A stretch of 33,872 bases of DNA from Clostridium sp. DSM 17811. GTDB taxonomy: Bacteria; Bacillota; Clostridia; Clostridiales; Clostridiaceae. Below the pieces are notes generated by a model that searched no databases, was not told the DNA's origin, and worked only from the letters and a program-made list of their open reading frames with translations. The position numbers were made by a program, and so were the translations under genes. The first letter of the stretch is position 1, and each line of letters begins with the position of its first letter. The DNA lies in NCBI RefSeq assembly GCF_018861905.1, contig NZ_JAHLDU010000034.1, forward strand, positions 1-33,872, written 5' to 3'. Below are positions 8,575 to 24,302 of the stretch, one piece after another.

Positions 8575-11073
8575 TTATTTTTCTAACTTCTCAAGTCTTT
8601 CTTTATAAAATCTTCTAGTTCTATAATCAATAATATCTTTAAAATGAGTTGTAAATTCAGGATTCTTTACGAATCCGCCTAACTCATCATTCAAACAAAA
8701 ATATGCTTCATCTCTATAAAAGAAATCTTCTGCTGAATTTAAAAATGCCTTTATTGGGTTTTCTGCTATTCTTAAATAGTCTTTTTTATCAAACCCTTTA
8801 TAGCTCTTAGTTGCTTTATGTCTCAAAAGATCCACCGCATTTGAAGGTTTATCATAGAATTCTGTAAAACTTTTAAAAATTGTTTCTTCATCTATTTTCA
8901 AATTTATATTACCATCATTATAGAATGCTAGGAGTAATGGCATCTTATAAGTCTTAGTCATGGTCGTTTTCTCAATAGTATTTAGAAATCCATAAGCTTT
9001 AGTATTTAAAAGCATTTTTTCTTCTTCCGAAATTTCATTTATCTTATTTAGAAACCCTAAATAATCATTAAATATATTTAATTCTCCTCTGGATCTTATT
9101 ATATTGTAAAGATCATCATCCATGTAAGTATACATTTGAAGTCTACTAGGTCTAGTTCTTAAATCTTCTTTTATTCTATTAAAATCCTCCACTACTAGAT
9201 CAAATATATTTTTTTGATCTATCATCATCTTCTTGAATATATCAATTACTTGAAAATCAAAATTCACTATACAATCATCGGGATATTCTTCTTCTGTAGG
9301 TAATCTACCAAGTTTTGCTTTCCCTGCAGTATCCTTTAATTTTCCACTTAGAAAGAATGGTATTAAGTTAGCTTTTTTATAATTACCTATAAAATCTAAT
9401 ACATTCACATACTTCTTGTCCTTATATTTCCTTAACCCACGCCCTAGTTGTTGAAGAAAAATGGTTGGGGATTCAGTTGGCCTTAATAGTAAAATCATAT
9501 CAATTTGAGGAATATCTAGCCCTTCATTAAACATATCTACAGAGAATATAATATTTAATTCCCCTGTTTTAAGTTTATCCACCGCTTTATGTCTATCCAT
9601 AGAAAACTCATTTTGCTCACCACTAATTACAGCGCAGGCTTTAATTCCATTTTCATTAAAATATTTGCTCATATATATGGCATGGCGTCTACTACTGCAG
9701 AAACCTAAAGCTCTTTTACTATTATATTTTTCGTAATGTTTTAAGATTAAATTTGAACGTTTATTAAGCATTAAGGCTTTTTCCAGCTCTGTTTCATCAT
9801 ACTTACCATTTTTAAAAGATATCTTTGTATAATCGGTCTCATCGAAAACTCCATAGTATCTAAATGGAACAAGCCATCCCTTATCTATTGCTCCTTTTAG
9901 TCTAACTTCATATACAATATTATAATCACAAAGAGCAAATACATCTTTGTTATCCAATCTCTCTGGAGTTGCAGTAAGTCCTAAAAGAAACTTTGGAGTA
10001 AAATATTCTAATATATTTGAGTAATTACCTGCTGCTGCATGGTGAAATTCATCTATTATAATATAATCAAACGCATCCTTTTTAAAATATTTATCACATA
10101 GGTACTGTTTTTGCCCCAGAGTTTGTACTGTAGCAAACAATACTTCTTTATTACTATCCTTATTTTCACCATTAAAAAATCCAGTCTTAATATTAGGCCT
10201 AATGTTTTTAAATGATATCTCTGCTTGATTTAATATTTCTTCTCTATGAGCTACAAATAGAATCCTATTAAAATCCAGCGAATCAAAAGCAGCAAGATAA
10301 GTTTTACCTATGCCCGTTGCAGCCACAACTAATCCTTTATCTAAACCATCTTCTCTGCATTTTCTTAGTTCATATAGTGCTTCAATTTGTGCACCTCTAG
10401 GCTCGTACAGCGGAATTACTAGGCCATATTCATCTTTGTTATCTTCCACTTTTTCTAGAGTATTAAAGACTTTAGGCCTTTTCCATACTGATGAATAACG
10501 CCTCAGCTCATCATCGTCAATAATTATAGAATGATTTAAAAATAAGTCTTCAAAAACATCTTTAAAATGTTTAAAATCTTCTAAGTTCTTATTCTTATTT
10601 ATTCTATAGTTCCACTCAATACCACTAGTTAATGCAGAATTGGACATGTTAGAAGAACCTATAAAAACATCTCCATCTTCTTCATATTCAAATATGTATG
10701 ACTTAGGGTGAAAGGATTTATTCTTAATATTATAAAACCTTAAATCTACCTTATCCCCTAGTGCTTCCTTTACTAAATATAAAGCTTGAGGCTGAGTGAT
10801 ATTAAGATAATTCCCTGTTAATATCCTTATCCGTACCCCACTTTGCGCAACCTGTTTTAAATCATTTATAAGTAATTTCACTCCTGATTCCATTAAAAAT
10901 CCTACAGCAAGGTCAATAGTCTTTGCTTTTCTTAAGGAGGCCGCTAATTTAGGCAATAAATAATCCTTGTCCCCAGTAGAGCAGTTTGAATCATAATCTA
11001 GCGTGGCCCCTTTAAATTGGATGGAATCACTAGTTATTATATCTTTAGTAACAATATCAACTTTATCCAACAT
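8575..11073 (-). CDS. PLD-domain plus DEAD/DEAH helicase
   Basis: An 832-residue protein with three parts. Residues 1-190 form a phospholipase D-like nuclease domain with one HKD-type motif, H122-x-K124 followed by GSSN (139-142). Residues 225-400 form helicase domain 1: Walker A AATGIGKT (251-258), DEFH (341-344), LTATPER (366-372). Residues 430-560 form helicase domain 2: GFCSSRRHAI, FSVDMFNEGLDIP and QQLGRGLRK (541-549). The last 270 residues are helical. Many relatives carry a further C-terminal DUF3427; here the protein stops at LEKLEK before such a domain. Family members act on DNA and are common in restriction or defence contexts. RBS AAGGAGG lies 13-14 bases before the ATG, longer than usual. 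This is the only full copy; pieces of it recur through the window. Confidence 0.9.
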   Translation of the reverse strand: MLDKVDIVTKDIITSDSIQFKGATLDYDSNCSTGDKDYLLPKLAASLRKAKTIDLAVGFLMESGVKLLINDLKQVAQSGVRIRILTGNYLNITQPQALYLVKEALGDKVDLRFYNIKNKSFHPKSYIFEYEEDGDVFIGSSNMSNSALTSGIEWNYRINKNKNLEDFKHFKDVFEDLFLNHSIIIDDDELRRYSSVWKRPKVFNTLEKVEDNKDEYGLVIPLYEPRGAQIEALYELRKCREDGLDKGLVVAATGIGKTYLAAFDSLDFNRILFVAHREEILNQAEISFKNIRPNIKTGFFNGENKDSNKEVLFATVQTLGQKQYLCDKYFKKDAFDYIIIDEFHHAAAGNYSNILEYFTPKFLLGLTATPERLDNKDVFALCDYNIVYEVRLKGAIDKGWLVPFRYYGVFDETDYTKISFKNGKYDETELEKALMLNKRSNLILKHYEKYNSKRALGFCSSRRHAIYMSKYFNENGIKACAVISGEQNEFSMDRHKAVDKLKTGELNIIFSVDMFNEGLDIPQIDMILLLRPTESPTIFLQQLGRGLRKYKDKKYVNVLDFIGNYKKANLIPFFLSGKLKDTAGKAKLGRLPTEEEYPDDCIVNFDFQVIDIFKKMMIDQKNIFDLVVEDFNRIKEDLRTRPSRLQMYTYMDDDLYNIIRSRGELNIFNDYLGFLNKINEISEEEKMLLNTKAYGFLNTIEKTTMTKTYKMPLLLAFYNDGNINLKIDEETIFKSFTEFYDKPSNAVDLLRHKATKSYKGFDKKDYLRIAENPIKAFLNSAEDFFYRDEAYFCLNDELGGFVKNPEFTTHFKDIIDYRTRRFYKERLEKLEK

Positions 11074-11484
11074 ACTACACTAATGCCTCCTTGGTATAAC
11101 TAAGCAACAACTAATATTTTCAATCAAATATACACTATACCAAATCATTTACTAATATGGCACTATCTACATTTTATCATAGTAACTTGTTGATTTAAAG
11201 ACACCCCTTTCTCACTAAGATGGAATGAAATCTTTTAAATTTAATTAGATTTCATAGCATCTTTAACTTAAATTTAACTTCCTACACTTCAGTGATTTCA
11301 GTCACTTATTAGCTATTAATATTATTTACTTAATTAAAATTTTATTAGGTTCTTATAAGATTTTACACTATTCTAATCTAAATTTTAACAACAGTTTATT
11401 TAAACAAATTCTATATTAATAGTATTTGTAAGTATACGAATATATGTTCGTATTTTGGTAATAATATTATTATATATATTATTT
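11074..11484. repeat. Module spacer, copy A
   Basis: This divergent spacer separates the helicase start (minus) from the Rpn-type gene (plus). Nearly the same sequence recurs at 12470-13078, 19261-19692, 21243-21657 and, shortened, 22644-22992. It contains the helicase RBS, several fixed words (for example GACACCCCTTTCTCACTAAG, TTCCTACACTTCAGTGAT), a LexA-like palindrome and an AT palindrome before the Rpn gene. By eye most positions agree between copies. Confidence 0.9.
11437..11450. promoter_or_regulatory. LexA/SOS-box-like palindrome, copy A
   Basis: CGAATATATGTTCG differs at one position from the Gram-positive LexA (SOS) box pattern CGAAC-N4-GTTCG. It overlaps the probable -35 region of the Rpn-type gene, where a repressor would act. 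Confidence 0.5.
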
Positions 11485-12024
11485 CAGACTTTAAATATAT
11501 ACTAGTAGATATAAACAGCTACTCTAAGGAATATTTATATGAGTTTAAAAACATTGCCGCAGCCATATTTCTATTAGACCAAGATATAAATGCCATGGAG
11601 TTTTTGGAAAGATTGAAAAATATAGTAATTAATTTTAATAACCTAACTTCTGAGGAAAAATTTATTAAAAGGCTGGATTAAAAATACAACTAATAGCAAT
11701 GAAATATATGATATGAATAAGTTAGTAGAAGACATATTCAATGAAAATAAAAAAGAGGAGGTTGAAATTATGGTTTCTAATGCATCGAACATCTTTAGTA
11801 AATTAAAAAGTGATGGAATAAAAGAGGGCAAGGAAGAAGGCAAGGAAGAAGGCAAGAAAGAAGGTAAGACCGAACTCCTTATAACGCTGCTAAAAAAAAG
11901 ATTCAATGGTCTTTCTGATTATTATACAGATAAGATTAGGTCTTTACCCGAGGGTGTTATTGATCAAATAGCAACAGATATATTTGATTTAGAAACAGTT
12001 GAGGATATAAAAAAATACTTATAA
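11485..12024 (+). pseudogene. Rpn-family nuclease/putative transposase, copy A (5'-deleted, frameshifted)
   Basis: Starting directly at the spacer, the frame reads FKYILVDINSYSKEYLYEF and FKNIAAAIFLLDQDINAMEF, typical of the Rpn/COG5464 family (PD-(D/E)XK fold). The start codon, RBS and the N-terminal nuclease half are absent. A 2-base loss relative to copy D (around 11657-11662) shifts the frame, ending at 11681. A second frame resumes at ATG 11713 and runs to 12024: IYDMNKLVEDIF, the K/E/G-rich run with repeated KEEG units, then a DUF4351-like tail (LLKKRFNGLSDYYTDKIRSL ... DLETVEDIKKYL). In intact form these proteins promote recombination; this copy should be inactive. Confidence 0.8.
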
Positions 12025-12027
12025 GAA

Positions 12028-12080
12028 AACAAGTGAAACAGCTATGAGGTAATTAATAGCTGTTTCATTTGTTATTTTTT
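12028..12080 (+). terminator. Terminator of Rpn copy A
   Basis: AACAAGTGAAACAGCT (12028-12043) pairs with AGCTGTTTCATTTGTT (12058-12073) and is followed by ATTTTTT. It directly follows the Rpn stop codon. The same hairpin follows copy D. Confidence 0.85.
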
Positions 12081-12469
12081 GTGTAACCTAAAATAAAAGC
12101 ATTAAAAATTTTAGGTCTTTTCCATACTAATGAATAACGCCTCAGCTCATCACCTAGTGCCTCCTTTACTAAGCATAAAGCCTCAGGTTGAGTGATATTA
12201 AGATAATTTCCTGTTAAAATCCTTATCCGTACACCACTTTGCGCCACCTGTTTTAAATCATTTATAAGTAATTTCACCCCTGATTCCATTAAAAATCCTA
12301 CCGCCATATCTATAGTCTTTGCTTTTTTTAATGAGGCCGCTAATTTAGGTAATAAATAATCATTATCCCCTGTAGAGCAGTTTAAATCATAATCTAGCGT
12401 GGCCCCTTTAAAATGGATGGAATCACTAGTTATTATATCTTTAGTAACAATATCAACTTTATCCTTCAT
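12065..12469 (-). pseudogene. Truncated helicase gene, PLD-half copy B
   Basis: A 134-codon open frame is nearly identical to residues 1-107 of the full helicase, then jumps in frame to residues 189-201 (EALGD joined to ELRRYS), and ends with 15 or so unrelated residues (FILGYTKNNK). The 81-codon deletion removes the H-x-K and GSSN active-site strands of the PLD domain. All helicase motifs are gone. The start codon and a GGGAGG ribosome binding site remain, and the frame has no stops, so a short protein could still be made. The identical deletion occurs at 22239-22643. Confidence 0.85.
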
Positions 12470-12674
12470 ACTTCACTAATGCCTCCCTGGTGTAACTAAG
12501 CAACAACTAATATTTTCAATCAAATATACGCTATACCAAATCATTTACTAATATGGCACTATCTACATTTTATCATAGTACCTTGTTGATTTAAAGACAC
12601 CCCTTTCTCACTAAGATGGAATGAAATCTTTTAAATTTAATTAGATTTCATAGCATTTTCAACTTAAATTTAAC

Positions 12675-12823
12675 GACATTTCAGAAGGAAAGTCTCCCAC
12701 TTCTACAAGCAGGAGTTACATATCCTAGCAAATAGGAAACTTCGGTGGAAGTATAAATCTCCTTCTGAAGTCGTTAATGCATCTTCTTCAAAGCTGTTGC
12801 AGCGACCCAGGAGATGATTTAAC
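12675..12823. mobile_element. 149-bp non-autonomous IS200/IS605-like element
   Basis: Compared with the other spacer copies, exactly these bases are extra. The left flank ends TTTAAC (12669-12674) and the insert itself ends TTTAAC (12818-12823). This is the arrangement expected for IS605-type single-strand transposition: insertion 3' of a TTTAAC-like target, with the same word as right cleavage site. Inside, TTCAGAAGGA (12680-12689) pairs with TCCTTCTGAA (12761-12770), and three smaller hairpins lie between (CTCC..GGAG, TCCTA..TAGGA, ACTTC..GAAGT). It has no ORF. On the minus strand it resembles a tnpB 3' end or guide-RNA end, including GAAGTGGGAG. Confidence 0.65.
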
Positions 12824-12981
12824 TTCCTACACTTCAGTGATTCCAGTCAGTTATTAGCTATTGATATTGTTTACTTAATTAAAATCTTATTAGGTTCTTA
12901 TAAGATTTTATACTATTCTAATCTAAATTTTAACAACAGTTTATTTAAGCAAATTCTATATTAATAGGATTTTTCATTATA

Positions 12982-12995
12982 CGAATATATGTTCG
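12982..12995. promoter_or_regulatory. LexA/SOS-box-like palindrome, copy B
   Basis: CGAATATATGTTCG, the same 14-mer as at 11437, is followed by a TATAAT (about 13014-13019) and the Rpn start at 13067. The palindrome overlaps the expected -35. Confidence 0.5.
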
Positions 12996-13224
12996 TATTT
13001 CGGTAATAATATTATTATAATATATATTATTTCAGATAAAAATTTGATATACTTAGGAGGGTAACCATGAGTTGTAACCATAATAGGCGGAATTCTCCCA
13101 TCCTCTACAGGTGGGGGATGGACAGCCTTTATTATTTTAGGTTAGATACATAAAATAATAGATCTTTGGCAAACTATTAATAGCAATATGTGATCAGTAG
13201 TAAACTTATAAGGGACTTGGTATA

Positions 13225-13431: not shown

Positions 13432-14517
13432 ATGTTAAAGGCTTATAAATTTAGGTTATATCCAAATGTTGAGCAAAGAATATATTTAGCTAAGACTTTT
13501 GGATGCACTAGGTTTGTATATAACCGAATGCTAGCTGAAAGAATTAAATCATATGAGGAAAACAAAGCCCTAGATATTAAGGCGATTAAATATCCCTCGC
13601 CCGCACAATACAAAACTGAATTTGAGTGGCTAAAAGAAGTCGATAGTCTTGCTTTAGCTAATGCTCAAATGAATTTAGGTAAAGCGTATAAGAATTTTTT
13701 TAGAGATAAATCAATTGGTTTTCCGAGGTTCAAGAAGAAAACTAATACCAATAGTTATACAACTAATAATCAAAATGGTACTGTGTATATAGAAAATAAG
13801 CATATCAAAGTACCTAAATTAAAGTCTATGATAAAAATAAAGCAGCATAGAGAATTCAATGGGTTAATTAAATCTTGCACTATATCACAAGTACCAAGTG
13901 GAAAATATTACATATCTATTTTAGTTGACGCTGAAAATATTCAATTGCCTAAAACAGGTAGTAAAATAGGTGTAGATCTGGGAATTAAAGAGTTTGCAAT
14001 AACAAGTAATGGTGAGTTTTTTCATAATCCTAAATACCTAAAGAAATCAGCTAAAAGGTTAGCTAAACTTCAAAAGGATTTATCAAGAAAACAAAAAGGT
14101 AGCAATAATAGAAAAAAAGCTAAAATAAAAGTAGCAAAATTACATGAGAAAATATCTAACCAAAGGAAAGATATGTTGCACAAAGTAAGCACTCAATTAA
14201 TTAACGAAAACCAAGTTATAGTGATTGAGGACTTAAAAGTTAGCAATATGCTAAAAAATCATAAATTAGCAAAATCAATAGCTGATGTTAGCTGGTCAGA
14301 GTTTAGAAGAATATTAGAATATAAGGCAAAATGGTATAGTAGAGAAATAATAGTAGCACCATCAAACTATGCAAGTAGTCAGTTATGTTCTGATTGTGGT
14401 AATCAATCAAGTCAAACTAAAAACTTATCTTGCAGAACTTATATATGTTCAGTATGTGGGATGATAATGGATAGAGATATAAATGCGAGCAAAAATTTAC
14501 TAAAACTAGCAATATAA
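13432..14517 (+). CDS. tnpB: TnpB, RNA-guided endonuclease of IS200/IS605 family
   Basis: A 361-residue protein with all hallmarks of TnpB. The N-terminus is LKAYKFRLYPNVEQ, the wedge/REC-like region runs to about residue 175, and a RuvC-like nuclease follows. Its three acidic residues are D182 (IGVDLGIKEFA), E266 (VIVIEDLKV) and D349 (MDRDINASKNL). A zinc finger of four cysteines is present (C319, C322, C339, C342). TnpB enzymes use an RNA made from the element's right end to cut DNA next to a target-adjacent motif and thereby help element retention. RBS GAGGTGAG precedes the ATG. Unlike the defective tnpA beside it, no damage is visible. Confidence 0.92.
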   Translation: MLKAYKFRLYPNVEQRIYLAKTFGCTRFVYNRMLAERIKSYEENKALDIKAIKYPSPAQYKTEFEWLKEVDSLALANAQMNLGKAYKNFFRDKSIGFPRFKKKTNTNSYTTNNQNGTVYIENKHIKVPKLKSMIKIKQHREFNGLIKSCTISQVPSGKYYISILVDAENIQLPKTGSKIGVDLGIKEFAITSNGEFFHNPKYLKKSAKRLAKLQKDLSRKQKGSNNRKKAKIKVAKLHEKISNQRKDMLHKVSTQLINENQVIVIEDLKVSNMLKNHKLAKSIADVSWSEFRRILEYKAKWYSREIIVAPSNYASSQLCSDCGNQSSQTKNLSCRTYICSVCGMIMDRDINASKNLLKLAI

Positions 14518-14685
14518 TAAAAGATATGTTGTTAGAGAGGTCGGAATGACCTTGATAGCTTGGATACGTCTCTGCAAGAGATGCACACGGCTCCGGAAGA
14601 GACGAACTTGCTACAGTAGTAGTATTGACCAAGAAGCCATCCACTTCTATAAGTGGTGGTAGTTCACAATGCAGAAGCATTTAAC
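14518..14685 (+). ncRNA. Candidate omegaRNA (TnpB guide RNA) region
   Basis: In IS200/IS605 elements the guide RNA spans the 3' end of tnpB and the right end of the element. The 168 bases after tnpB contain several inverted repeats (GGTCGGAATGACC at 14539-14551, CGTCTCTGCAAGAGATG near 14569-14585, CCACTTCTATAAGTGG at 14641-14656) and end at the inferred boundary. The guide would start at 14686 with CTTCTCATGACC. This is inference from position and structure; the 5' end cannot be fixed. Confidence 0.45.
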
Positions 14686-14705
14686 CTTCTCATGACCTAA
14701 GACTT

Positions 14706-15290
14706 CTATTTTATAATATTAATAGTACCTTCCTTTCGTGAGAGTGCAATTGATGGTTTATCAATATATCCAACCACAGCTGAAGAGCAGATAGTATGCT
14801 CTTTGGGAATCCCTAATTCAAAAAGAAATTCACGAAATTCGGCATCATTTCGTAGCCAGTGTAACTGATTAATATAGCAAGTCCCCAATCCTATAGAATT
14901 CGCCGCTAAAAAAAGGTTTTCTAATGCAAGTGAACAGTCTGCCATAGCATTTTCATAATTAGGCTTATTAGAAGCAATAATAAGTGTAGGTGCATGATAG
15001 AAAAAATGGCAATCTTTTTTTTCTGCTACAGCTTTGACACCCAGCTTACCTGGATAATCGTCATCAGGAACCCAACGTTTAAATCCTTGCCTTAGCAATT
15101 CGTTGATCCGTAAAAGAGTTTCTTTGTTCTGGATTGCAGTAAACAGCCAGCTTTGATTATTGCCTCCACTTGGCGCCCATGTAGCGGCCTCCAATAGGGC
15201 TTTTAGCTCTTCTTCTTTAATCTGTTGCTCCTTGAATTTACGTGTACTTCTCCGCGAACGGATACAGTCGAGCACTTCATTATTTATCAT
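14706..15290 (-). CDS. Nitroreductase family protein
   Basis: A 194-residue FMN-dependent nitroreductase. The N-terminal signature IRSRRSTRKFKEQQI (10-24) and AATWAPSGGNNQSW (35-48) bind FMN. The later stretch ALENLFLAANSIGLGTCYI and the C-terminal VVGYIDKP are family hallmarks. Such enzymes reduce nitro compounds or related acceptors with NAD(P)H; the physiological substrate cannot be told. RBS AGGAGG lies a few bases before the ATG. Its base composition looks slightly higher in GC than its neighbours. A truncated VOC gene lies 56 bases upstream in the same direction. Confidence 0.85.
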   Translation of the reverse strand: MINNEVLDCIRSRRSTRKFKEQQIKEEELKALLEAATWAPSGGNNQSWLFTAIQNKETLLRINELLRQGFKRWVPDDDYPGKLGVKAVAEKKDCHFFYHAPTLIIASNKPNYENAMADCSLALENLFLAANSIGLGTCYINQLHWLRNDAEFREFLFELGIPKEHTICSSAVVGYIDKPSIALSRKEGTINIIK

Positions 15291-15346
15291 AATTTTCCTC
15301 CTATCATAAAACCAAAAATATATAACTATAAATCAATATATTACTA

Positions 15347-15523
15347 TTATACAGCAAATTGTTGCCCAGCTAATTCAAAATTTATACTTTCCGCATCTCC
15401 TGAAGGTGTACCTTCCATAATCGTCACGTTTAGAATCTTAGAGTTATCAAATAAACTGATATAGAATATGGCCGCTTCTTTAGCTTCTTTGTCGTACCAT
15501 AAATGTGGAACTATTTTTTGCAT
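15347..15523 (-). pseudogene. Truncated VOC/PhnB-like protein
   Basis: A 58-codon frame encodes MQKIVPHLWYDKEAKEAAIF, then YISLFDNSKI, and FELAGQQFAV before a stop. This matches the first third of PhnB-like VOC superfamily proteins (full length about 130-160 residues), whose metal-binding fold needs the missing part. RBS AAGGAG precedes the ATG. It is cut after the first beta-alpha unit. A helicase-gene fragment lies just upstream (15588-15638). Confidence 0.65.
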
Positions 15524-15587
15524 ATTATTCTCCTTTCTTGTTATTTAAGAAGTTTCTTCAATAAATCCAAAACACTGTAAATATAAT

Positions 15588-15638
15588 GAATCAAAAGCCG
15601 CCAGATAAGTTTTACCTATTCCAGTTGCAGCCACAACT
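15588..15638 (-). pseudogene. Small fragment of the helicase gene (Walker A region)
   Basis: These 51 bases match the full helicase gene around 10286-10336 with a few differences and encode the Walker A stretch (AATGIGKTYLAAF). The flanks do not match. It is one of several short pieces of this gene scattered through the window. Confidence 0.8.
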
Positions 15639-15826
15639 TATTACAAAAATGCAGGCTCACTTTACAATAGGTATCAGTTTATGATCAGTCAACAAGTATA
15701 TTAACAAGATCAGCGCTGCGTGATTTATTGTTTAATAATATCTAAGCGTTGTAAACGTTTTCCATAGCTTCAAACGATGATTTCTAAAGAGAACAAAAGT
15801 TTTTTAGATATTTTAATTTCTTTATA

Positions 15827-15882: not shown

Positions 15883-17325
15883 TCAGTTATATATATCTGA
15901 GAATTCTATACTAGTTTTTTCAACACAACTATCACTTTTAATGCCACAATATGAAATATCCTCTGGACCCTCATCACCTACTAATTTACATGGAATATAT
16001 ATAATAAATTCAGTACCATATCCCTCCTTACTTTTCACCGATATTGTTCCACCATGTAGTTCTACTAGGCATTTCACAAGCGAAAGCCCTATTCCACTTC
16101 CCTCATGATCTCTTGAAAGAGATTTGTCAACTTGCACAAAACGATCAAATATGGAATTTAGTTTATCTGCTGGAATACCTCTTCCGGTATCTTTTACCCT
16201 TATGCAAATATTTTCAATACCGTCCTCTATATTAACCATAACATTGCCACCATAAGGAGTAAATTTTACTGCATTTGATAATAGATTTAAAATAATTCTC
16301 TCAATTTTTTCTGGATCACATGCAATATTTTTTTCCTCTATCTCTGTATCAAATGTTAATGATAATCCTTTATTTTCTATATAATCAACTACAGAAACAC
16401 TTATATCTTCTACGAGACTGATTATGTTAGTATTAATTTTATTTATATCTAAATAGCCTGAATCTATTTTTGTTATATCAATTAAATTATTAATTAGTCT
16501 TAAAATACGAAAGCAATTTTGTTTCATTATCTTTGTGTATTTGTATATATCTGTGGATGCATTTGGGCATACATAGTCTTTTAGTTTAAGTTCATGTACC
16601 TGTAGTGCCGAAAAAATAACATTAATCGGAGTCCTTAACTCATGAGAAATATTCGAAAAAAACTCTGTTTTAATTCTATCATACTCCTTAATCTCATATA
16701 GCCTTTCTCTTTCATCATCAATATTTTTTTGTAATTCTTCCATATGTTTTCTTTCAGTTATATCTATAGCTACTATCATTAACAATTTGCGCCCATCCTG
16801 CAATTGCCTAGTATTTGCTGAATAAAAATCCCAAATTAGAATACTTCCATTCCTTGTTCTTATAGAGTATTCGCCATCATTTTGTTTTTTTCCCATATTA
16901 GACAGTCTGCTTACAGTAGTACCCTCTAACCCTTCTATAAATACATCTGATATTCTTGCAAATTCAGCTATTGTTGGAGTATCTTTAATTGTATATCCTG
17001 TAATATCAGTCCATGTTCTATTTATTTTTTTTATTTCTCCATCCTCATTATATAACATTATAGGTAATGGAGCTTCCTCTATAGTATACCGAAATTGTCT
17101 TTCTCTTTCCTTTACGGCTTCTTCAGTTTTTGTGCGCTCAGTAATTTCCTCTTCTAGCATAACATTGAATTCCTTAAGGTCAGCAGTTATCTCTTCTAGC
17201 TGTTGTGCTTGCTCTAGCACCTTGTTTTCCAAATCACTATTCACTTTTATCAATTCTTCATTAGATTTCTTCATTTCATTAAGAGCTTTTTTATATTCAC
17301 ATTCATTTTCACTTAAATTATCCAT
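15883..17325 (-). CDS. Soluble PAS-domain sensor histidine kinase
   Basis: A 480-residue kinase without membrane segments. Order: N-terminal coiled coil (1-75), PAS domain (about 75-195, ending in the PAC-like IVAIDITERK), and a short coil. Then come HisKA with the phospho-acceptor H228 in FFSNISHELRTP, and a HATPase_c domain with NLLSNAVKFTP (N box), DTGRGIP (G1) and GSGIGLSL (G2). All kinase motifs are present. There is no receiver domain and no response-regulator gene nearby, so its partner is elsewhere. The gene starts 42 bases after the FIST protein gene and must be in one operon with it. The likely arrangement is that the FIST protein senses a small molecule and the kinase relays it. 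Confidence 0.92.
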   Translation of the reverse strand: MDNLSENECEYKKALNEMKKSNEELIKVNSDLENKVLEQAQQLEEITADLKEFNVMLEEEITERTKTEEAVKERERQFRYTIEEAPLPIMLYNEDGEIKKINRTWTDITGYTIKDTPTIAEFARISDVFIEGLEGTTVSRLSNMGKKQNDGEYSIRTRNGSILIWDFYSANTRQLQDGRKLLMIVAIDITERKHMEELQKNIDDERERLYEIKEYDRIKTEFFSNISHELRTPINVIFSALQVHELKLKDYVCPNASTDIYKYTKIMKQNCFRILRLINNLIDITKIDSGYLDINKINTNIISLVEDISVSVVDYIENKGLSLTFDTEIEEKNIACDPEKIERIILNLLSNAVKFTPYGGNVMVNIEDGIENICIRVKDTGRGIPADKLNSIFDRFVQVDKSLSRDHEGSGIGLSLVKCLVELHGGTISVKSKEGYGTEFIIYIPCKLVGDEGPEDISYCGIKSDSCVEKTSIEFSDIYN

Positions 17326-17367
17326 TATTTATGGCTCCATTTCAAAATATTTTAATAGAAAATCAAG

Positions 17368-18717
17368 TTATATATTTGCTTTTAATTTGAAAACAAGCAT
17401 AGTAGCTGTCTGATTTATATGTCCAATAAATTCTTCACCATAAGTGGAGAAACCTATGGTCGGAATATCACTAAATATTTGACCATACTGCTTTTCAAGA
17501 TCGTTTCTCTCCAATTCAAGTGTCCGCTCTACACAATTAAAATTTATGAAACCATCTATTCTTCCAAATTCTTTTATTTTATTTTCAACAGCGTTCTTTG
17601 TATCTTCAACTATATTTGTACACTGCATCAATCTGACTTCCATACCTTTAAGTATATTGCAATAAAATAACATACTGGTTCCCTTTATTTGTTGGGGACT
17701 TCTTATGAATATATCATTATCTCCAACTAATAAACCAACTGGATTGGTCTTAAAGTATTTTGTAGCATCTTCAATTGAAGCTGCCCCTACTGCCTCTGCA
17801 TATTCCAAGATAGCAGGCTTATTATTAAATTCAATGACTTCTCTAGTTTCTTCATTAACATTATTTGCAGTAAATATATGATCCAAAGCTTTGAAGCTTT
17901 GTGTTTTAATAATACTAAATTCAGCATTGTCGTTTATTTTCAACATTATAAGAACTGCTGAATCAGCATATGCCTTTCCATTTGCACAAACATGCGTTTT
18001 AAAATATTTAAGATCATCACCTGCAGAGCCACCAACAAAAAAAACGTTAGTTCTATTACCGATTAAATCCATGATTTTTTCTTCTTTCCTACTTACACCA
18101 TCAATTAAAACAATACCAACAAATTTTGTTGCATCCATTGTATATAAACTCTCATTAAAGTATTTCTCAAAAGAAGTAAATGCAGCTTCTAAGCTTAGAT
18201 TTTCTTTCATATGTTCAATTACTTCCACTTTTGCATCAGAAATAATATTTGAATTAATAGCCATTGCTACAACAGAATTTTTCAACAACTCACCACTTAC
18301 TATTTCACCAGCAGTAGAACATCCAACTACTATGCAATCCACAAAAGCTTCTTGCAGCAGATTACTTAACTTGTCTTGGTCAAAATTAGAAGAAGCGAAG
18401 AATATTAATATCTTTGCATTGCAATGATTTAACTGACTTTTAATATCCAATACAATCTCTTTTTCTAAAGATTTTGTTGAAAACACGGATTTTATATTCA
18501 TATCGTTATCTTCCATCTTTCTTACATTCAATTGTTTAGCGATTTTAAGAAGTTTTCGGACAATTTCCGGATCATCAGCTGAGTGACTATCAAATTTGTT
18601 AGGATTAAGTCCTTTCAGAATTAATTTAGATATAGTCATTTCTCTAATAGCAGGATTGCCTTTAGAACGTTCTTGAATAATCTGATTTATCATTTCTCTT
18701 ATTTTACCAGCCACCAA
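17368..18717 (-). CDS. FIST-domain sensory protein
   Basis: A 449-residue protein. Residues 1-70 form a helical module (IREMINQIIQERSKGNPAIR ... DPEIVRKLLKIAKQL). FIST_N follows (about 85-280, with CIVVGCSTAGEIV and VFFVGGSAGDD), then FIST_C (about 290-430, with NPVGLLVGDNDIFIRSP and IDGFINFNCVERTLEL, ending GFSTYGEEFIGHINQTATML). FIST domains are small-ligand sensors commonly coupled to signal transduction. No membrane segment is present. The start is non-ATG: TTG at 18717 has AAAGGG eight bases upstream, and the next codon, GTG, is a less well-placed alternative. It is the first gene of the operon with the histidine kinase. Confidence 0.88.
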   Translation of the reverse strand: MVAGKIREMINQIIQERSKGNPAIREMTISKLILKGLNPNKFDSHSADDPEIVRKLLKIAKQLNVRKMEDNDMNIKSVFSTKSLEKEIVLDIKSQLNHCNAKILIFFASSNFDQDKLSNLLQEAFVDCIVVGCSTAGEIVSGELLKNSVVAMAINSNIISDAKVEVIEHMKENLSLEAAFTSFEKYFNESLYTMDATKFVGIVLIDGVSRKEEKIMDLIGNRTNVFFVGGSAGDDLKYFKTHVCANGKAYADSAVLIMLKINDNAEFSIIKTQSFKALDHIFTANNVNEETREVIEFNNKPAILEYAEAVGAASIEDATKYFKTNPVGLLVGDNDIFIRSPQQIKGTSMLFYCNILKGMEVRLMQCTNIVEDTKNAVENKIKEFGRIDGFINFNCVERTLELERNDLEKQYGQIFSDIPTIGFSTYGEEFIGHINQTATMLVFKLKANI

Positions 18718-18719
18718 TA

Positions 18720-18890
18720 ATCATTCCCTTTCTTTATATTCGCATAGTTAAGTTCCAGCTTTAGAATTAAATTTACCAACATCATTCAAAAGCCACATCT
18801 TACTAATTTTAGACTTTTTTACTAAAATATACATCATTATAGCATATATTCCCTATAATTTACTTAATTTTCATAAAAAATTTACTCTTG
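18720..18890. promoter_or_regulatory. Upstream region and extended -10 promoter of the FIST/kinase operon
   Basis: On the minus strand an extended -10, TGC-TATAAT, lies at 18845..18837, about 120 bases before the FIST start, leaving a long leader. No consensus -35 is seen. No other gene is visible in this stretch. Confidence 0.4.
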
Positions 18891-18897
18891 TATACAA

Positions 18898-19003
18898 AGT
18901 GATCCCTACTGGTACAGAAACCTAAGGCTTTTCTACTATTATATTTATCACTATCATTATTTCTACCACTAAAAAATCCAGTTTTAATACTTGGTCTTAT
19001 GAG
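18898..19003 (-). pseudogene. Helicase gene fragment with internal deletion
   Basis: Two short pieces match the helicase gene. 18905-18950 corresponds to the CSSRRHA/RALGF region (around 9686-9730), and about 18951-19003 corresponds to the region around 10145-10200. They are fused, so about 400 bases between are gone. The pieces are diverged and not translatable. Confidence 0.7.
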
Positions 19004-19019
19004 TATTATTATTTACAAT

Positions 19020-19190
19020 TTTATGAGGAAAGCCCACTTCTTTAGATGTGGAATGGATATCACTACCAAAATCAACTATTAAACATAGGTGTTTTGGTAC
19101 GATATAATTAATTTAGGTTTTGAAATGAGCCTTATACTATCGTTACGTCGGTTATGATAAGTTGAAATTTTTAAAGGAACCCTTGTTGAA
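19020..19190. mobile_element. Possible IS200/IS605 end remnant
   Basis: The plus strand contains GAAAGCCCACTTCTTTAGATG with a subterminal hairpin (CCACTTCTTTAGATGTGG, imperfect), similar to the CCCACTTCTACAAG end of the element at 12675 and to the hairpin at 14641. The following 120 bases have no coding frame. It lies between two helicase-gene fragments. The call rests only on these end-like words. Confidence 0.3.
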
Positions 19191-19194
19191 CTGC

Positions 19195-19260
19195 CCCTTT
19201 AAATTGGATGGAATCACTAGTTATTATTTCTTTAGTAACAATATCAACTTTATTCTTCAT
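19195..19260 (-). pseudogene. 5' end fragment of the helicase gene, copy C
   Basis: About 66 bases match the start of the helicase gene (start codon ATG at 19260..19258, then KNKVDIVTKEIITSDSIQF). Beyond that the sequence diverges into unrelated DNA. The adjacent spacer copy C continues to the right. Confidence 0.8.
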
Positions 19261-19692
19261 ACTACACTAATGCCTCCCTTATATAATTAAGCAACAACTA
19301 ATATTTCCAATCAAATATACACTATACCAAATCATTTACTAATATGTCACTATCTACATTTTATCATAGTAACTTGTTGATTTAAAGACACCCCTTTCCC
19401 ACTAAGATGGAATTAAATCTTTTAAATTTAATTAGATTTCATAGCATTTTTAACTTAAATTTAACTTCCTACACTTCGGTGATTTCAGTCAGTTATTAGC
19501 TATTAATGTTATTTACTTAATTAAAATCTTATTAGGTTTTTATAAGATTTTAATCTACATTTTAACAAAAATATATTCAAACAAATTCTATACTAATAAT
19601 AATTTTCATCGCACGAATGTATGTTCGCTTTTCGGTAATAATATTATTAAAATATATATTATTTTAGGCAAAAATTTGATATACTTAGGAAG
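19261..19692. repeat. Module spacer, copy C
   Basis: Same order of conserved words as spacer A, more diverged, with a short deletion near 19553 (the ACACTATTC stretch is missing). It includes the Rpn promoter region and leads into the only preserved N-terminal piece of an Rpn gene besides copy B. Confidence 0.85.
19614..19627. promoter_or_regulatory. LexA/SOS-box-like palindrome, copy C
   Basis: CGAATGTATGTTCG. The central bases differ from the other copies, while the outer CGAAT and GTTCG half-sites are kept. Confidence 0.45.
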
Positions 19693-19806
19693 ATGAACAT
19701 AAGTTTTAAAAAAGATTTAAATGACATTCATTATAAAAGTTATAAGGATTTATTTTCTACAAATGATGCTTTTTTATCCTTTGTTAAAACCTTTAATTTA
19801 TTTTAA
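19693..19806 (+). pseudogene. N-terminal fragment of the Rpn gene, copy C
   Basis: Encodes SFKKDLNDIHYKSYKDLFST then NDAFLSFVKTFNLF and a stop. This is the usual first 35 residues of the Rpn family. The codon corresponding to the normal start is ATA (19699-19701); an in-frame ATG lies two codons earlier but is too close to the GGAAG. After the stop, the sequence jumps to the region normally downstream of the Rpn stop (AACAAGTGAAACAAC), so the whole body of the gene is deleted. A short helicase-like word (GATGAATAACGCC) follows at about 19824. Confidence 0.75.
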
Positions 19807-19934: not shown

Positions 19935-20249
19935 ATGAGCGATGATAAAATGTTTGAATTTATGACCAAAATGTATTCAGAAATGCAAGAAAGTTTTAAA
20001 GACATAAAAAATAATGATAAAATTCACACTGAACGATTTGATAAGCTTGAAACTAGACTTGGTAGCCTTGAAAATGAGGTTAAAAAAATAGGTGTGAAGA
20101 TAGATGGAAAACTTATCCCTACCAGTGATGCTCTTTTGGATGGATATAAAAGTAATTCTGAACATATAACGATTATTGATGATAAAATTGTCAGGTTACA
20201 AATAGATGTGAATAGTATAAGTATGAAAGTGTCAAATAAATTTCTTTGA
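19935..20249 (+). pseudogene. Coiled-coil protein gene, copy 1 (3' end replaced)
   Basis: A 104-codon frame whose first 96 residues closely match the protein at 23145: MSDDKMFEFMTKMYSEMQ, coiled-coil heptads, GVKIDGKLIPTSDALLDGY, SEHITIIDDKI. The last residues (SNKFL) diverge at about 20232, where a DUF1016-type fragment begins. RBS GAGGTG precedes the ATG. The natural C-terminus (SRIIEISKNLRKVE) is missing; a shortened protein could still be made. Confidence 0.65.
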
Positions 20250-20392
20250 CTATATCCTTTGCCATAATCTTTAGTTAACTCCTTTCTTAAATTGCTAATT
20301 ACTGATTTACCATACTCAGCTTTTGCACTTTGCAATATTTCCGTTTTATTAATTTTACCTATATTCCAATATAAAATTACCACCGAATTCTT
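20234..20392 (-). pseudogene. N-terminal fragment of a DUF1016 (YhcG-type) nuclease
   Basis: The minus-strand frame encodes VVILYWNIGKINKTEILQSA, then KAEYGKSVISNLRKELTKDY and GKGYSQRNLF. This is the characteristic N-terminal helix-turn-helix-like region of DUF1016/YhcG proteins, which in full length (about 340-380 residues) carry a PD-(D/E)XK domain. Both ends are cut, on the left by the coiled-coil gene and on the right by a helicase-gene fragment. Confidence 0.75.
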
Positions 20393-20404: not shown

Positions 20405-21242
20405 TCTAAGTCTTTTAATCATATCTACAGAGAATATAATATTTAATTCCCCTGTTTTAAGTTTATCTACCGCTCCATGTCTATCCATAGAAAACTCATT
20501 TTGCTCACCACTAATTACAGCGCAGGCTTTAATACCATTTTCATTAAAATATTTACTCATGTATATGGCATGGCGTCGATTGCTGCAGAAACCTAAAGCT
20601 CTTTTATTATTATACTTTTCATAATGTTTTAGGATTAAATTTGACCGTTTATTAAGCATTAAGGCTTTTTCCAGCTCAAACTCATCATACTTACCATTTT
20701 TAAAAGATATCTCTGCTTGGTTTAATATTTCTTCTCTATGTGCTACAAATAGAATTCTATTAAAATCAAGCGAATCAAAAGCAGCAAGATAAGTTTTACC
20801 TATGCCCGTTGCAGCAACAACTAATCCTTTATCTAAACCGTCCTCTCTACATTTCTTTAGTTCATATAGTGCCTCAATTAGTGCACCTCTAGGCTCATAC
20901 AGCGGAATTACTAGGCCATATTCATCTTTGTTATCTTCTACCTTTTCAAAAGTATTAAAGATTTTAGGCCCTTTCCATACTGATGAATAACGCCTAAGCT
21001 CATCATCGTCAATAATTATGGAATGATTTAAAAATAAGTCTTCAAAAACATTCTTAAAGTGTGTAAAATCCTACCGCCATATCTATAGTCTTTGCTTTTT
21101 TTAATGAGGCTGCTATTTTCGGCAATAAATAATCCTTCTCCCCTGTAGATCAGTTTGAATCATAATCTAGCGTGGCCCCCTTAAATTGGATGGAATCACT
21201 AGTTGTTATATCTTTACTAAGAATATTAACTTTGTCCATCAT
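20405..21242 (-). pseudogene. Helicase gene, copy D, with two internal deletions
   Basis: Compared with the full gene at 8575-11073, this copy lacks the 3' half. It begins (on the plus strand) at helicase motif FSVDM, runs through RALGFCSNRRHA and then loses about 390 bases. It continues from the region of the Walker A motif to IIIDDDELRR, loses about 330 bases, and ends with the first 55 or so codons. The deletions join at short shared words (GATATCTCTG near 20706-20715; AAAATCCTAC near 21065-21074). No complete domain remains. Confidence 0.9.
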
Positions 21243-21657
21243 AATTCACTAATGCCTCCCTTATATAACTAAGCAACAACTAATATTTTCAATCAAATAT
21301 ACGCTATACCAAATCATTTACTAATATGGCACTATCTACATTTCATCATAGTAACTTGTTGATTTAAAGACACCCCTTTCTCACTAAGATGGAATAAAAT
21401 CTTTTAAATTTAATTAGATTTCATAGCATTTTTAACTTAAATTTAACTTCCTACACTTCAGTGATTTCAGTCAGTTATTAGCAATTAATATTATTTACTT
21501 AATTAAAATCTTATTAGTTTCTTATAAGATTTTACACTATTCTAATCTAAATTTTAACAACAGTTTATTTAAGCAAATTCTATATTAATAGGATTTTTCA
21601 TTACACGAATATATGTTCGTATTTTGGTAATAATATTATTATAATATATATTATTTC
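21243..21657. repeat. Module spacer, copy D
   Basis: Very similar to spacer A, including the point where the Rpn 5' deletion begins (TATTTCAGAC). Copies A and D are therefore products of one duplication that happened after the Rpn 5' deletion. Confidence 0.9.
21606..21619. promoter_or_regulatory. LexA/SOS-box-like palindrome, copy D
   Basis: CGAATATATGTTCG, identical to the copies at 11437 and 12982; a TATAAT follows at about 21639-21644. Confidence 0.5.
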
Positions 21658-22198
21658 AGACTTTAAATATATACTAGTAGATATAAACAGCTACTCTAAG
21701 GAATATTTATATGAGTTTAAAAACATTGCCGCAGCCATATTTCTATTAGATCAGGATATAAATGCCATGGAATTTTTAGAAAGATTGAAGAATATAGTAA
21801 TTAATTTTAATAACCTAACTTCTGAGGAAAAATTATTATTAAAAGGCTGGATTAAAAATACAACTAATAGCAATGAAATATATGATATGAATAAGTTAGT
21901 AGAAGACATATTTGATGAAAATAAAAAAGAGGAGGTTGAAATTATGGTTTCTAATGCATCAAACATCTTTGGTAAATTAAAAAGTGATGGAATAAAAGAA
22001 GGTTTGAAAGAAGGTAAGAAGGAAGGCAAGAAAGAAGGTAAAACCGAACAACTTATAACGCTGCTAAAGAAAAGATTCAATGGTCTTTCTGATTATTATA
22101 CAGATAAGATTAGATCTTTACCCGAGGATGCTATTGATCAAATAGCAACAGATATATTTGATTTAGAAAAAATTGAGGATTTAAAAAAATACTTATAA
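21658..22198 (+). pseudogene. Rpn-family nuclease/putative transposase, copy D (5'-deleted)
   Basis: The same 5' deletion as copy A, but the rest of the frame is open from FKYILVDINSYS to the stop at 22198. It includes NNLTSEEKLLLKGWIKNTTN, which is frameshifted in copy A, the charged repeat KEGLKEGKKEGKKEGKTE and the DUF4351-like tail. A shortened product could start at ATG 21767 but no RBS precedes it, and the catalytic N-terminal half is missing. Confidence 0.8.
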
Positions 22199-22201
22199 GA
22201 A

Positions 22202-22254
22202 AACAAGTGAAACAACTCCGATGAGATTCTTAGCTGTTTCACTTGTTATTTTTT
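22202..22254 (+). terminator. Terminator of Rpn copy D
   Basis: AACAAGTGAAACAAC pairs with the GCTGTTTCACTTGTT arm ending at 22247 and is followed by ATTTTTTG. It is equivalent to the terminator at 12028. Confidence 0.8.
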
Positions 22255-22643
22255 GTGTACCCTAAAATAAAAGCATTAAAAATTTTAGGTCTTTTCCATA
22301 CTAATGAATAACGCCTCAGCTCATCACCTAGTGCTTCCTTTACTAAATATAAAACCTCTGGTTGAGTGATATTAAGATAATTACCTGTTAATATTCTTAT
22401 ACATACACCACTTTGCGCCACCTGCTTTAAATCATTTATAAGTAATTTCACTCCTGATTCCATTAAAAATCCTACCGCCATATCTATAGTCTTTGCCTTT
22501 TTTAATGAGGCCGCTAATTTAGGTAATAAATAATCCTTATCCCCTGTAGAGCAATTTGAATCATAATCTAGCGTGGCCCCTTTAAATTGGATGGAATCAC
22601 TAGTTATTATATCTTTAGTAACAATATCAACTTTATCCTTCAT
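22239..22643 (-). pseudogene. Truncated helicase gene, PLD-half copy E
   Basis: 134 codons, almost identical to the copy at 12065-12469, with the same in-frame loss of residues 108-188 and the same new C-terminus (FILGYTKNNK). The start codon is kept, but the distance to the upstream AAGG is changed by a small deletion (GCCCCTTGG instead of GCCTCCTTGG), weakening the RBS. The frame is fully open. Confidence 0.85.
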
Positions 22644-22992
22644 ACTTCACTAATGCCCCTTGGTATAACTAAGCAACAACTAATATTTATAATGCTATAC
22701 CAAATCATTTACTAATATGGAACCATCTACATTTTATCATAGTAACTTGTTGATTTAAAGACACCCCTTTCACAATGAGGTGGAATGAAATCTTTTAAAT
22801 TTAATTAGATTTGGCAGCATTTTTAACTAAAATTTAACTCCCTATACTTCAGTGATTTCAGTCTGTTATTAGCTATTAATATTATTTTTTTAATTAAATT
22901 CTTACTAGGTTTTTATAAGATTTTACAACATACTAATCTAGAGATTAACAACAGTTTATTTAAACAAATTCTACTAATTCTATATTAATAGA
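22644..22992. repeat. Module spacer, copy E (shortened)
   Basis: The same conserved words as the other spacers but more diverged and missing the part that holds the LexA-like palindrome and the Rpn promoter. It joins directly to an internal Rpn piece. Confidence 0.8.
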
Positions 22993-23083
22993 TGTGAGGA
23001 AAAATTGTTATTAAAGGATAGACTAAGAATACAACTAATAACAATTAAATATATGATATGGATAAGTTAATAGAAAATAACTC
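22993..23083 (+). pseudogene. Internal Rpn gene fragment, copy E
   Basis: About 90 bases correspond to the Rpn stretch SEEKLLLKGWIKNTTNSNE to MNKLVED, with substitutions and no usable frame. It follows spacer E and precedes the coiled-coil gene. Confidence 0.65.
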
Positions 23084-23144
23084 ATTAAAAAAAAGATATT
23101 AAATTGCAATTTAGAATGATATAATATAAAAGCGAGGTGCTAAT

Positions 23145-23519
23145 ATGAGTGATGATAAAATGTTTGAATTTATGACCAAAATGTATTCAGAAATGCAAGA
23201 GGGATTTAAAGATATAAAAACTGAGTTTAAAGATATAAAAACTGAGGTTAATGATATAAAAACTGAGATTAAAGAAAACACCAAAAGGCTTGATGCAATT
23301 GAGAATGATGTTAAAAAATTAGGTGTAAAGATAGACGGAAAACTTATCCCTACCAGTGATGCTCTTTTGGATGGATATAAATGTAATTCTGAACATATAA
23401 CGATTATTGATGATAAAATTGACAGACTTCAAATAGATGTAAATAGTATAAGTATGAAAGTGTCGTATAATGATAGTAGAATTATAGAAATATCTAAAAA
23501 CCTTAGAAAAGTTGAATAA
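23145..23519 (+). CDS. Small coiled-coil protein, copy 2 (intact)
   Basis: A 124-residue soluble protein, almost entirely coiled coil. The N-terminus is MSDDKMFEFMTKMYSEMQ, followed by three to four heptads of the type (F/V/I)-x-D-I-K-T-E encoded by a 21-base tandem repeat (about 23203-23268). A conserved middle follows, GVKIDGKLIPTSDALLDGY, then a second coiled-coil half ending ISKNLRKVE. RBS GAGGTG lies a few bases before the ATG, and TATAAT at about 23120-23126 can serve as the -10. It has the look of a family common in clostridia, of unknown function. A partial paralogue lies at 19935. Confidence 0.7.
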   Translation: MSDDKMFEFMTKMYSEMQEGFKDIKTEFKDIKTEVNDIKTEIKENTKRLDAIENDVKKLGVKIDGKLIPTSDALLDGYKCNSEHITIIDDKIDRLQIDVNSISMKVSYNDSRIIEISKNLRKVE

Positions 23520-23767: not shown

Positions 23768-24238
23768 GTGTCAGTAAGCGAAATTAAGAAAGAAACTCCT
23801 AATAATATTAATGAGTTAGTTAAAATGGCAGATGATAAAGCTAATTGGAGAAAAAGACTTGAAGCAGTAAATGAGTTGAAAAATTGGAAATGTCAAAAAT
23901 CGCGAGATGTATTAACAAGATTAGCAATGCATGATTTAGTATTTAAAGTTAAAGAGGAAGCTCTCCGGGCAACTCAATCCTTAGGCATAACTAAGAATGG
24001 TAAACGTTTGAAACTCGGTAAACCCAAGGTTCATTTGATCAAAGACATAAACAAAAAACTATATCATGTAGATAATGTAATAACGGAAAGTTTTGAAATA
24101 ACTAAGTTTAAAGAGAAATTTAAGCAACTTTATCCTGAGCCATATGATGTATATGAGGGCGATAAAGGAACCAGTTTTGATGAATGGATTTTAAATGTTT
24201 TAAAAAATAAACCCAAAAACAAGACTACAAACAAATAA
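23768..24238 (+). CDS. HEAT-repeat-like protein
   Basis: A 156-residue soluble protein. Residues 15-75 form two HEAT-type helical hairpins (NWRKRLEAVNELKNWKCQKS, VLTRLAMHDLVFKVKEEALR). A basic linker (KNGKRLKLGKPK) and a C-terminal helical part (FKEKFKQLYPEPYDVYEGDK) with a Lys-rich tail follow. HEAT repeats generally mediate protein-protein contacts. The start is GTG at 23768 with GGCGGTG upstream. I recall similar clostridial proteins of unknown role. The frame is intact, and a helicase-gene fragment follows within ten bases. Confidence 0.65.
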   Translation: MSVSEIKKETPNNINELVKMADDKANWRKRLEAVNELKNWKCQKSRDVLTRLAMHDLVFKVKEEALRATQSLGITKNGKRLKLGKPKVHLIKDINKKLYHVDNVITESFEITKFKEKFKQLYPEPYDVYEGDKGTSFDEWILNVLKNKPKNKTTNK

Positions 24239-24243
24239 ACTTC

Positions 24244-24302
24244 TATTAAAATCCACTGAATCAAAAGCAGCAAGATATGTTTTACCTATACCCGTTGCAA
24301 CA
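24244..24302 (-). pseudogene. Small fragment of the helicase gene (Walker A region)
   Basis: About 55 bases match the helicase gene around 10268-10325 (AATGIGKTYLAAFDSLDF) with a few changes. It stands alone between the HEAT gene and the terminator of the glycerol operon. Confidence 0.8.

Follow-up and report, generated by a model that had tools for sequence, protein, structure and literature searches.

Probable erosion of a locally duplicated defence locus around a SauUSI-like helicase gene in Clostridium sp. DSM 17811

Contig NZ_JAHLDU010000034.1 of the cold-loving Clostridium sp. DSM 17811, analysed here at its full length of 33,872 nucleotides (the window), is contig 34 of a 98-contig, 5.19-Mb assembly (GCF_018861905.1), and carries an array built from three recurring pieces: the 5' end of a gene for a phospholipase D (PLD) nuclease/superfamily 2 (SF2) helicase, an adjoining spacer of ~415 bp, and divergently oriented remnants of an Rpn-type nuclease gene. 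Self-BLASTN of the window (E ≤ 1e-5) resolves five copies of this unit, A to E, with identities of ~82-97% (Table 1). The array is quite probably the eroded product of repeated local duplication of a single defence locus, in which the conserved neighbors of the helicase are small nucleotide hydrolases of the MazG and HIT families.

A preliminary description, made from the letters alone, had placed the unit at 8.6-12.0, 12.1-13.1, 19.2-19.8, 20.4-22.2, and 22.2-23.1 kb, with a spacer of about 400 bp and a single full-length helicase, and self-BLASTN agrees on each of these points, the only complete helicase (832 aa) being that of copy A. Its inventory was nevertheless short, in that copy B keeps the Rpn leader only and four further places hold helicase crumbs; as the crumb at 18867-19001 may be the rest of the copy C helicase, the copy number is put at five to nine. 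The common origin it proposed for segments 11074-12480 and 21243-22650 is likewise upheld, because 10896-12674 (A-B) matches 21065-22838 (D-E) at 93.1% identity over 1784 bp and both segments have the same Rpn deletion and the same deletion of helicase residues 109-187, with an additional frameshift near 11661 in copy A. Protein-level helicase matches (E ≤ 1e-5) in this genome are confined to the present contig, bar a 38% identical paralogue on contig 27, and Rpn scraps occur additionally on contigs 16 and 42. Two near-complete sister genomes, G003 (2 contigs) and G006 (4 contigs), with helicases 95% identical, bear arrays of the same pieces in other orders, so the repeats are not an assembly artefact, as had been considered. 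The earlier view that amplified copies were afterwards eroded is upheld. Relics of helicase and Rpn are also found in C. frigoris, and the helicase 5' ends are 91-97% alike within the group and 77-85% alike to those of other species, in a star-like tree. Helicase fragments upstream of a full helicase in a genome of another genus (L146:335-652 in G028) indicate that partial duplication has occurred elsewhere too.

Five helicase joints are available for study, those of B and E probably reflecting one event. Two show long homology runs (15 of 16 nt and 6 nt) and three show about 3 nt, against a null mean of 0.84 with P(≥4) of 0.028 and P(≥6) of 0.004, so that the proposal of microhomology at all deletions held only partly. 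Between copies B and C, at 14668-19202, lie nitroreductase, PAS histidine kinase, and FIST genes that are 98.9-99.9% identical to those of G006. It is conceivable that the repeats persist as homology arms for the exchange of gene blocks between strains, since the tnpB-nitroreductase-kinase-FIST block, which G006 has on the opposite side of copies C-D, shares 98.5-99.9% identity with that genome, where one other 5.3-kb region reaches 96% and the helicase 93%. Only one background region was measured, however, a glycyl-radical-enzyme operon is also 97.8% identical, and rearrangement between repeats needs no selection, so this explanation is regarded as unlikely.

The surviving helicase contains PLDc_2 (E 3e-12), ResIII, and Helicase_C domains by Pfam, and its nearest match in the PDB is SauUSI (7clg, E 4e-98, residues 38-583). 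The PLD catalytic motif is HxK, and H122, K124, and N142, along with many motor residues, are invariant across 35 aligned helicases. Comparison with G006 reveals purifying selection, with 51.5 nonsynonymous (N) and 122.5 synonymous (S) differences against a null N of 131. Named species with helicase relatives are Clostridium bowmanii, C. lacusfryxellense, C. algoriphilum, C. tagluense (G016), and C. frigoris. Eight class-level relatives (L157-L161 and L163-L165), in frames of 841-1057 aa, are first matched only from residue about 209-220, and their N-terminal part may have been exchanged or have diverged greatly.

The genes beside the helicase were surveyed in 52 loci of its subfamily, one per genome, of which 6 came from the same genus (17 genomes searched) and 46 from 206 family and 391 class genomes; weaker helicase matches for which no locus was extracted are not counted, and four broken or partial members (L040, L041, L047, and L055) were left out. 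Flanks reached ≤1.5 kb from the matched stretch, and less at contig ends or where the gene was only partly matched. Nineteen outgroup loci, with helicases 34-43% identical and mostly SauUSI-sized, served as the control. A MazG homologue, sought with a profile built from 29 of the same loci, was found near the helicase in 39 of the 52, a HIT hydrolase in 16, and a class-I S-adenosylmethionine (SAM)-dependent methyltransferase in 11, the families being named by Pfam on exemplars and the HIT and methyltransferase probes being taken from MazG-less loci of this set. At least one of the three accompanies the helicase in 47/52 loci, compared with 1/19 in the outgroup (one MazG, no HIT, and no methyltransferase), whose other 18 loci have none. 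The remaining subfamily loci comprise one with a macro protein and one with an SLFN-type helicase gene, present by construction as both supplied probes, and three with none of these neighbors. A phmmer pre-check of 29 of the 52 loci had returned MazG in 28 and Rpn in none.

In 35 of the 39 loci the MazG gene lies ≤200 nt from the helicase, in four side and strand arrangements, which speaks against mere inheritance of gene order. HIT is on the helicase strand in 16/16 loci and upstream in 13 of them, and in G005 all three genes stand together (MazG-> <-helicase <-HIT) with all frames open. The MazG gene of the window, retained on the far side of the helicase from the spacer, where HIT once stood, is under purifying selection in comparison with both G003 and G006. 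A second MazG-like gene occurs in G006 about 10 kb from the helicase-linked one (L060:8406-8717). A background set of 53 loci selected by Rpn or spacer contained HIT in 4 (two being the same place) and MazG in 2 (both in the G006 array), and 10 tiles gave a single hit each for HIT and MazG, in both cases at the helicase locus of G005; this set overlaps the array and is not a clean control. MutT-like proteins have the Nudix fold, and a Nudix partner was also considered, but a motif regex, run without a positive control, found no Nudix-box open reading frame (ORF) in the 52 + 19 loci. Taken together, the gene neighborhoods suggest that small nucleotide-processing enzymes, and not Rpn, are the company to which the surviving helicase belongs. 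MazG is counted among predicted defence domains by DefensePredictor (PMC13092281).

A broader proposal, which we hold only tentatively and at somewhat less than even probability, is that the helicase is central to a multi-gene system of immunity or repair not yet described, in which it nearly always works with a small nucleotide-handling enzyme (MazG, HIT, methyltransferase, or macro). In such a system the motor would detect or cut damaged or foreign nucleic acid, and some nucleotide product would be destroyed by the partner or would trigger it; that partner enzymes of unrelated families but similar substrates replace one another points to a nucleotide step common to all.

The Rpn remnants have fared differently from the helicase, as the nuclease core is deleted in every copy in the window. 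Copy D matches only DUF4351 (E 2e-12) and lacks the Rpn/YhgA-like PD-(D/E)XK core (Transposase_31, PF04754), compared with Transposase_31 plus DUF4351 in the intact relative L067; a PF12784 profile matched nowhere, controls included, and was uninformative. No intact copy of this Rpn subfamily was found in the window's genome, and close relatives of about 340-366 residues in G009, G013, and G016 do not stand beside a helicase. According to PMC10327210, RpnS is an antitoxin made from an internal start and bearing four-residue repeats, and both features can be recognized by sequence in copies A and D and in three intact relatives. The C-terminal frames of A and D might be orphan RpnS antitoxins kept to neutralize full Rpn toxins on foreign DNA: each is open and has AGGAGG ahead of its internal ATG, with repeats like those described in that paper, copy D matches DUF4351, and between A and D there are 11.5 N and 8.5 S differences against a null N of 15.0 (P 0.04). 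The frameshifted Rpn stretch (N 1, S 6, P 0.002) and the truncated helicases B-E (P 0.0003) nonetheless give an equal or stronger signal, which is therefore not specific; other Rpn relics (G003, G007, and G008) keep only part of the region or carry stops. Selection for an orphan antitoxin was accordingly set aside and is judged very unlikely. The synonymous excess in the fragments suggests either that divergence took place before the copies ceased to code, with deletions exchanged afterwards, or that the fragments are still selected, and gene conversion or such selection may play a part. A comparison labelled hel418-516, read in the wrong frame (22 stops), is left out of these counts.

The helicase and the Rpn nuclease had been proposed to be functional partners, a divergent pair amplified and then eroded. 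Remnants of the two do lie next to each other repeatedly, in G000, G003, G006, and C. frigoris, an SOS-like box lies in the region between the two, and C. tagluense has an intact Rpn gene divergent from an intact HIT gene, the helicase's neighbor elsewhere. Against this, an Rpn profile that matched 9/10 control loci (5 of which had built it) matched 0/52 related helicase loci, G003 and G006 included, where the Rpn crumbs are too short for this profile. No intact pair was found in the 17 genus genomes, which with the profile result amounts to the refuting outcome set out beforehand, and Rpn is broken in every linked copy seen, with one helicase kept. The partnership is thus largely refuted already, and we consider it very doubtful. 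Two genes that recur together within one group of genomes are probably not partners here, and the likelier partners become visible only in relatives. For the E. coli Rpn proteins, PMC5350276 describes increased RecA-independent recombination.

The spacer itself preserves a trace of HIT. On its helicase side, spacer A matches HIT coding DNA of G005, where HIT overlaps the helicase start, and the truncated HIT gene of C. algoriphilum, which breaks off at its PKRH codons and runs directly into the helicase start. This joint (GGCATT, then AGT..., ATG) recurs with small changes in copies A-E and in G006, and the full G003 copy retains only its last bases. Local-alignment scores exceed the best of 200 shuffles for C. 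algoriphilum (62 vs. 50) and for G005 (57 vs. 48), and both places joined by the deletion read AAAGAGGC in G005, a short repeat that explains the loss. On these matches the helicase-side end of the spacer is derived from HIT coding sequence, and the helicase ribosome-binding site likely now lies within former HIT codons. The middle of spacer A is 74.6% identical to DNA of G001, 70.4% to G005 (81 bp), and 74% to C. tagluense and C. bowmanii (113 bp).

The opposite end of the spacer faces Rpn. The LexA (SOS) box has the consensus CGAAC-N4-GTTCG, and a predicted box with 9/10 of its key bases occurs in spacers A-D; these four sites are copies of one another, with 0.10 expected by chance for a pattern that was chosen after it had been seen. 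In the whole genome, six sites lie within one mismatch of CGAACATATGTTCG, compared with one for the reversed control pattern; three of the six belong to the array, and another stands in front of an ORF that by eye looks like a Y-family polymerase gene. The box also precedes intact Rpn genes in G009 and G016 but not in G013, and its position in front of Rpn fits the divergent layout with a control region given in the preliminary description. In C. tagluense (contig 36) the intact Rpn and HIT genes are 551 bp apart with a LexA-like box between them, and on the strength of this one genome Rpn and HIT-helicase may have formed the divergent pair ancestrally. The idea that the spacer was retained for its function was dropped, as several helicase crumbs have no adjoining spacer. 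What the spacer offers is a traceable origin for an intergenic control region, in which a piece of a dead HIT gene appears to have come to serve the next gene as its leader and likely ribosome-binding site.

The array most likely arose by local duplication, deletion, and recombination between copies, rather than as a mobile unit. A single deletion, common to the window's group and C. algoriphilum, fused the helicase start to the PKRH codons of HIT, leaving a spacer that, followed outward, continues into DNA like that upstream of HIT and then into the divergent Rpn promoter with its LexA-like box. Duplication of the joined region would have given the five to nine copies, which would then have decayed by deletions, some of them at short repeats, and traded sequence among themselves, and unequal recombination among tandem copies could have caught metabolic genes between them and shifted these from copy to copy; copy orders differ between species. 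Purifying selection has kept one helicase and one MazG gene; the Rpn nuclease core was lost from every copy in the window. The surviving pair may attack marked or foreign DNA by means of an ATP-driven, SauUSI-like nuclease, whose nucleotide hydrolase partner would clear or sense the nucleotides that the attack generates.

Several observations weigh against this account of duplication and decay beside a nucleotide hydrolase. The window's MazG protein matches the Pfam MazG-like (E 5e-5) and PRA-PH (E 0.005) families below both curated cut-offs, MazG was not found in 13/52 loci, and the HIT and methyltransferase families were chosen after the fact from the set in which they were counted, with the outgroup as the control. 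The match to HIT covers only a short stretch, 37-45 bp by BLAST and about 100 bp by local alignment, and against G001's other HIT gene it scores 58, not above the best of 200 shuffles (61). The synonymous excess in the truncated helicases (B-E) and the frameshifted Rpn remnant is also odd for plain decay.

That the unit is or was a self-copying mobile element, as had also been put forward, is highly improbable: although its many pieces spread over 8.6-32 kb with unrelated genes between them, and the array also encloses a small insert and a tnpB of IS605 type, matches between copies stop at different places and share no end across the whole set (no systematic search was made for target duplications), no transposase was recognized within the unit, the relics are on one contig, plasmid (19 records at E ≤ 1e-60) and phage (8 records at E ≤ 1e-40) collections hold only relatives of <60% identity, and the insert, in copy B here but represented by a piece in the main copy of G006, looks like a visitor. 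The defined common ends that, with target duplications, mark a transposon or insertion sequence (IS) are not in evidence. Pieces related to the 142-bp insert also occur in G003, G005, and C. frigoris. Adjoining copy B inside the array is an intact-looking IS200/IS605 TnpB gene (13432-14517; 361 aa; NF038281, E 6e-149), preceded by a degraded TnpA-like sequence recognized by eye.

Table 1. Copies of the repeat unit and individual features of the window (strand given where applicable).
Feature	Position	Strand	Basis or remark
Copy A	8575-12034		self-BLASTN
Copy B, broken by 142-bp insert at 12675-12816	12065-13078		self-BLASTN
Copy C	19192-19803		self-BLASTN
Copy D	about 20415-22208		self-BLASTN
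Copy E	22239-23094		self-BLASTN
MazG-like nucleoside triphosphate (NTP) pyrophosphohydrolase gene, 103 aa	8216..8527	+	helicase neighbor conserved among relatives
Full-length PLD nuclease/SF2 helicase, 832 aa, SauUSI-like in first 580 residues	8575..11073	-	
HIT-hydrolase gene remnant forming helicase leader, likely ribosome-binding site (spacer A, helicase side)	11074..11183	-	HIT DNA matches
Spacer A middle, 131 bp, like DNA upstream of HIT in G001 and G005; dispersed elsewhere too	11235..11365		
LexA-like (SOS) box CGAATATATGTTCG, Rpn promoter, copy A	11437..11450	+	
Rpn remnant A, nuclease domain deleted, frameshift near 11661	11489..12024	+	tblastn vs. 348-aa intact Rpn
RpnS-like antitoxin frame A, open	11770-12024	+	internal AGGAGG 8 nt before ATG
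Helicase fragment B, residues 1-108 joined to 188-204, open 134-aa frame	12065..12469	-	
Spacer B, LexA-like box at 12982, split by 142-bp insert	12470..13036		
142-bp insert at TTTAAC, like non-autonomous IS200/IS605-type element (type by eye)	12675..12816		gap between matched halves
Rpn leader only, copy B	13037..13078	+	12817-13077 matches 19459-19709
Helicase crumb	15588..15641	-	90.7% to 10280-10333
Helicase crumb, two joined pieces, perhaps remainder of copy C	18867..19001	-	self-BLASTN
Helicase fragment C, residues 1-23	19192..19260	-	
Spacer C, LexA-like box at 19614	19261..19667		89% to spacer A
Rpn N-terminal fragment, about 34 residues, copy C	19696..19803	+	79% to Rpn N-terminus
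Small coiled-coil gene downstream of Rpn remnant	19935..20249	+	homologous to 23145-23519
DUF1016/YhcG PDDEXK nuclease gene relic	20234..20382	-	96.6% to part of intact 348-aa G003 gene
Helicase fragments D, about residues 516-418, 290-165, 60-1	20405..21242	-	
Spacer D, LexA-like box at 21606	21247..21660		95% to copy A
Rpn remnant D, open C-terminal part, without nuclease core; RpnS-like frame 21944-22198	21661..22198	+	
Helicase fragment E, same deletion as B, open 134-aa frame	22239..22643	-	
Spacer E, shortened, no LexA-like box found	22644..22973		88% to spacer A
Rpn crumb E	22995..23094	+	82% to 11651-11750
Small coiled-coil gene, second copy, 124 aa	23145..23519	+	
Helicase crumb	24231..24310	-	86.3% to 10253-10332, 87.5% to 20745-20824
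Helicase crumbs, 31750-31827 and 31845-31964	31750..31964	-	

Several other genes accompany the array. The small coiled-coil gene (MSDDKMFEF...) that follows the Rpn remnants is present in two copies that belong to the history of the array, with homologues in G006 (three), G003, and C. frigoris, and G001 ORF L086 resembles it by eye and has a piece of Rpn-type promoter in front. G003 carries an intact DUF1016/YhcG nuclease gene (DUF1016_N plus YhcG_C; L058:11036-12082) between a truncated and a full helicase. To the left of the helicase lie genes for a DUF4062 protein (4265-5263) and a RelA/SpoT-domain protein (1909-3045; PDC-S33-like by PADLOC), and this neighborhood may be a defence island. 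Rfam gave no matches in the window at gathering scores.

Compared with known systems, the remnants resemble the RpnL/RpnS toxin-antitoxin in that, as in PMC10327210, the three intact Rpn relatives have an internal ATG, a preceding purine-rich Shine-Dalgarno-like site, and four-residue repeats, although the window holds remnants without the nuclease core and with a LexA-like promoter box. The helicase is closest to the type IV restriction enzyme SauUSI (7clg), with which it shares the order of N-terminal PLD nuclease and central SF2 helicase-like ATPase. Enzymes of the SauUSI type cut 5mC/5hmC DNA in an ATP-dependent manner. At 832 aa the window helicase is smaller than SauUSI (953 aa), which includes a C-terminal DUF3427 recognition domain according to PMC3874153; at the C-terminus of the window helicase no match to DUF3427 (PF11907) was found at E ≤ 0.001 by sequence comparison, and the PDB match stops at residue 583. 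The association with MazG and HIT, if functional, would be a testable SauUSI-related system across Clostridia, and it is this association and the HIT origin of the spacer that merit following, the array itself being ordinary genome decay. A helicase of this kind paired with MazG or HIT was not found among the papers listed from an open-access library, though it may be in print elsewhere, as that library lacks most subscription papers. The nearest parallel is a gene pair of Corynebacterium in which a PLD-fused SF2 helicase likewise stands beside the gene for a pyrophosphate-splitting nucleotide enzyme (PMC5379612). The partner there is a MutT-like pyrophosphohydrolase, whereas in the window it is MazG-like and among relatives often accompanied by HIT; if functional, the clostridial association would be a second case, after that Corynebacterium pair, of a PLD helicase coupled to a nucleotide-splitting enzyme.

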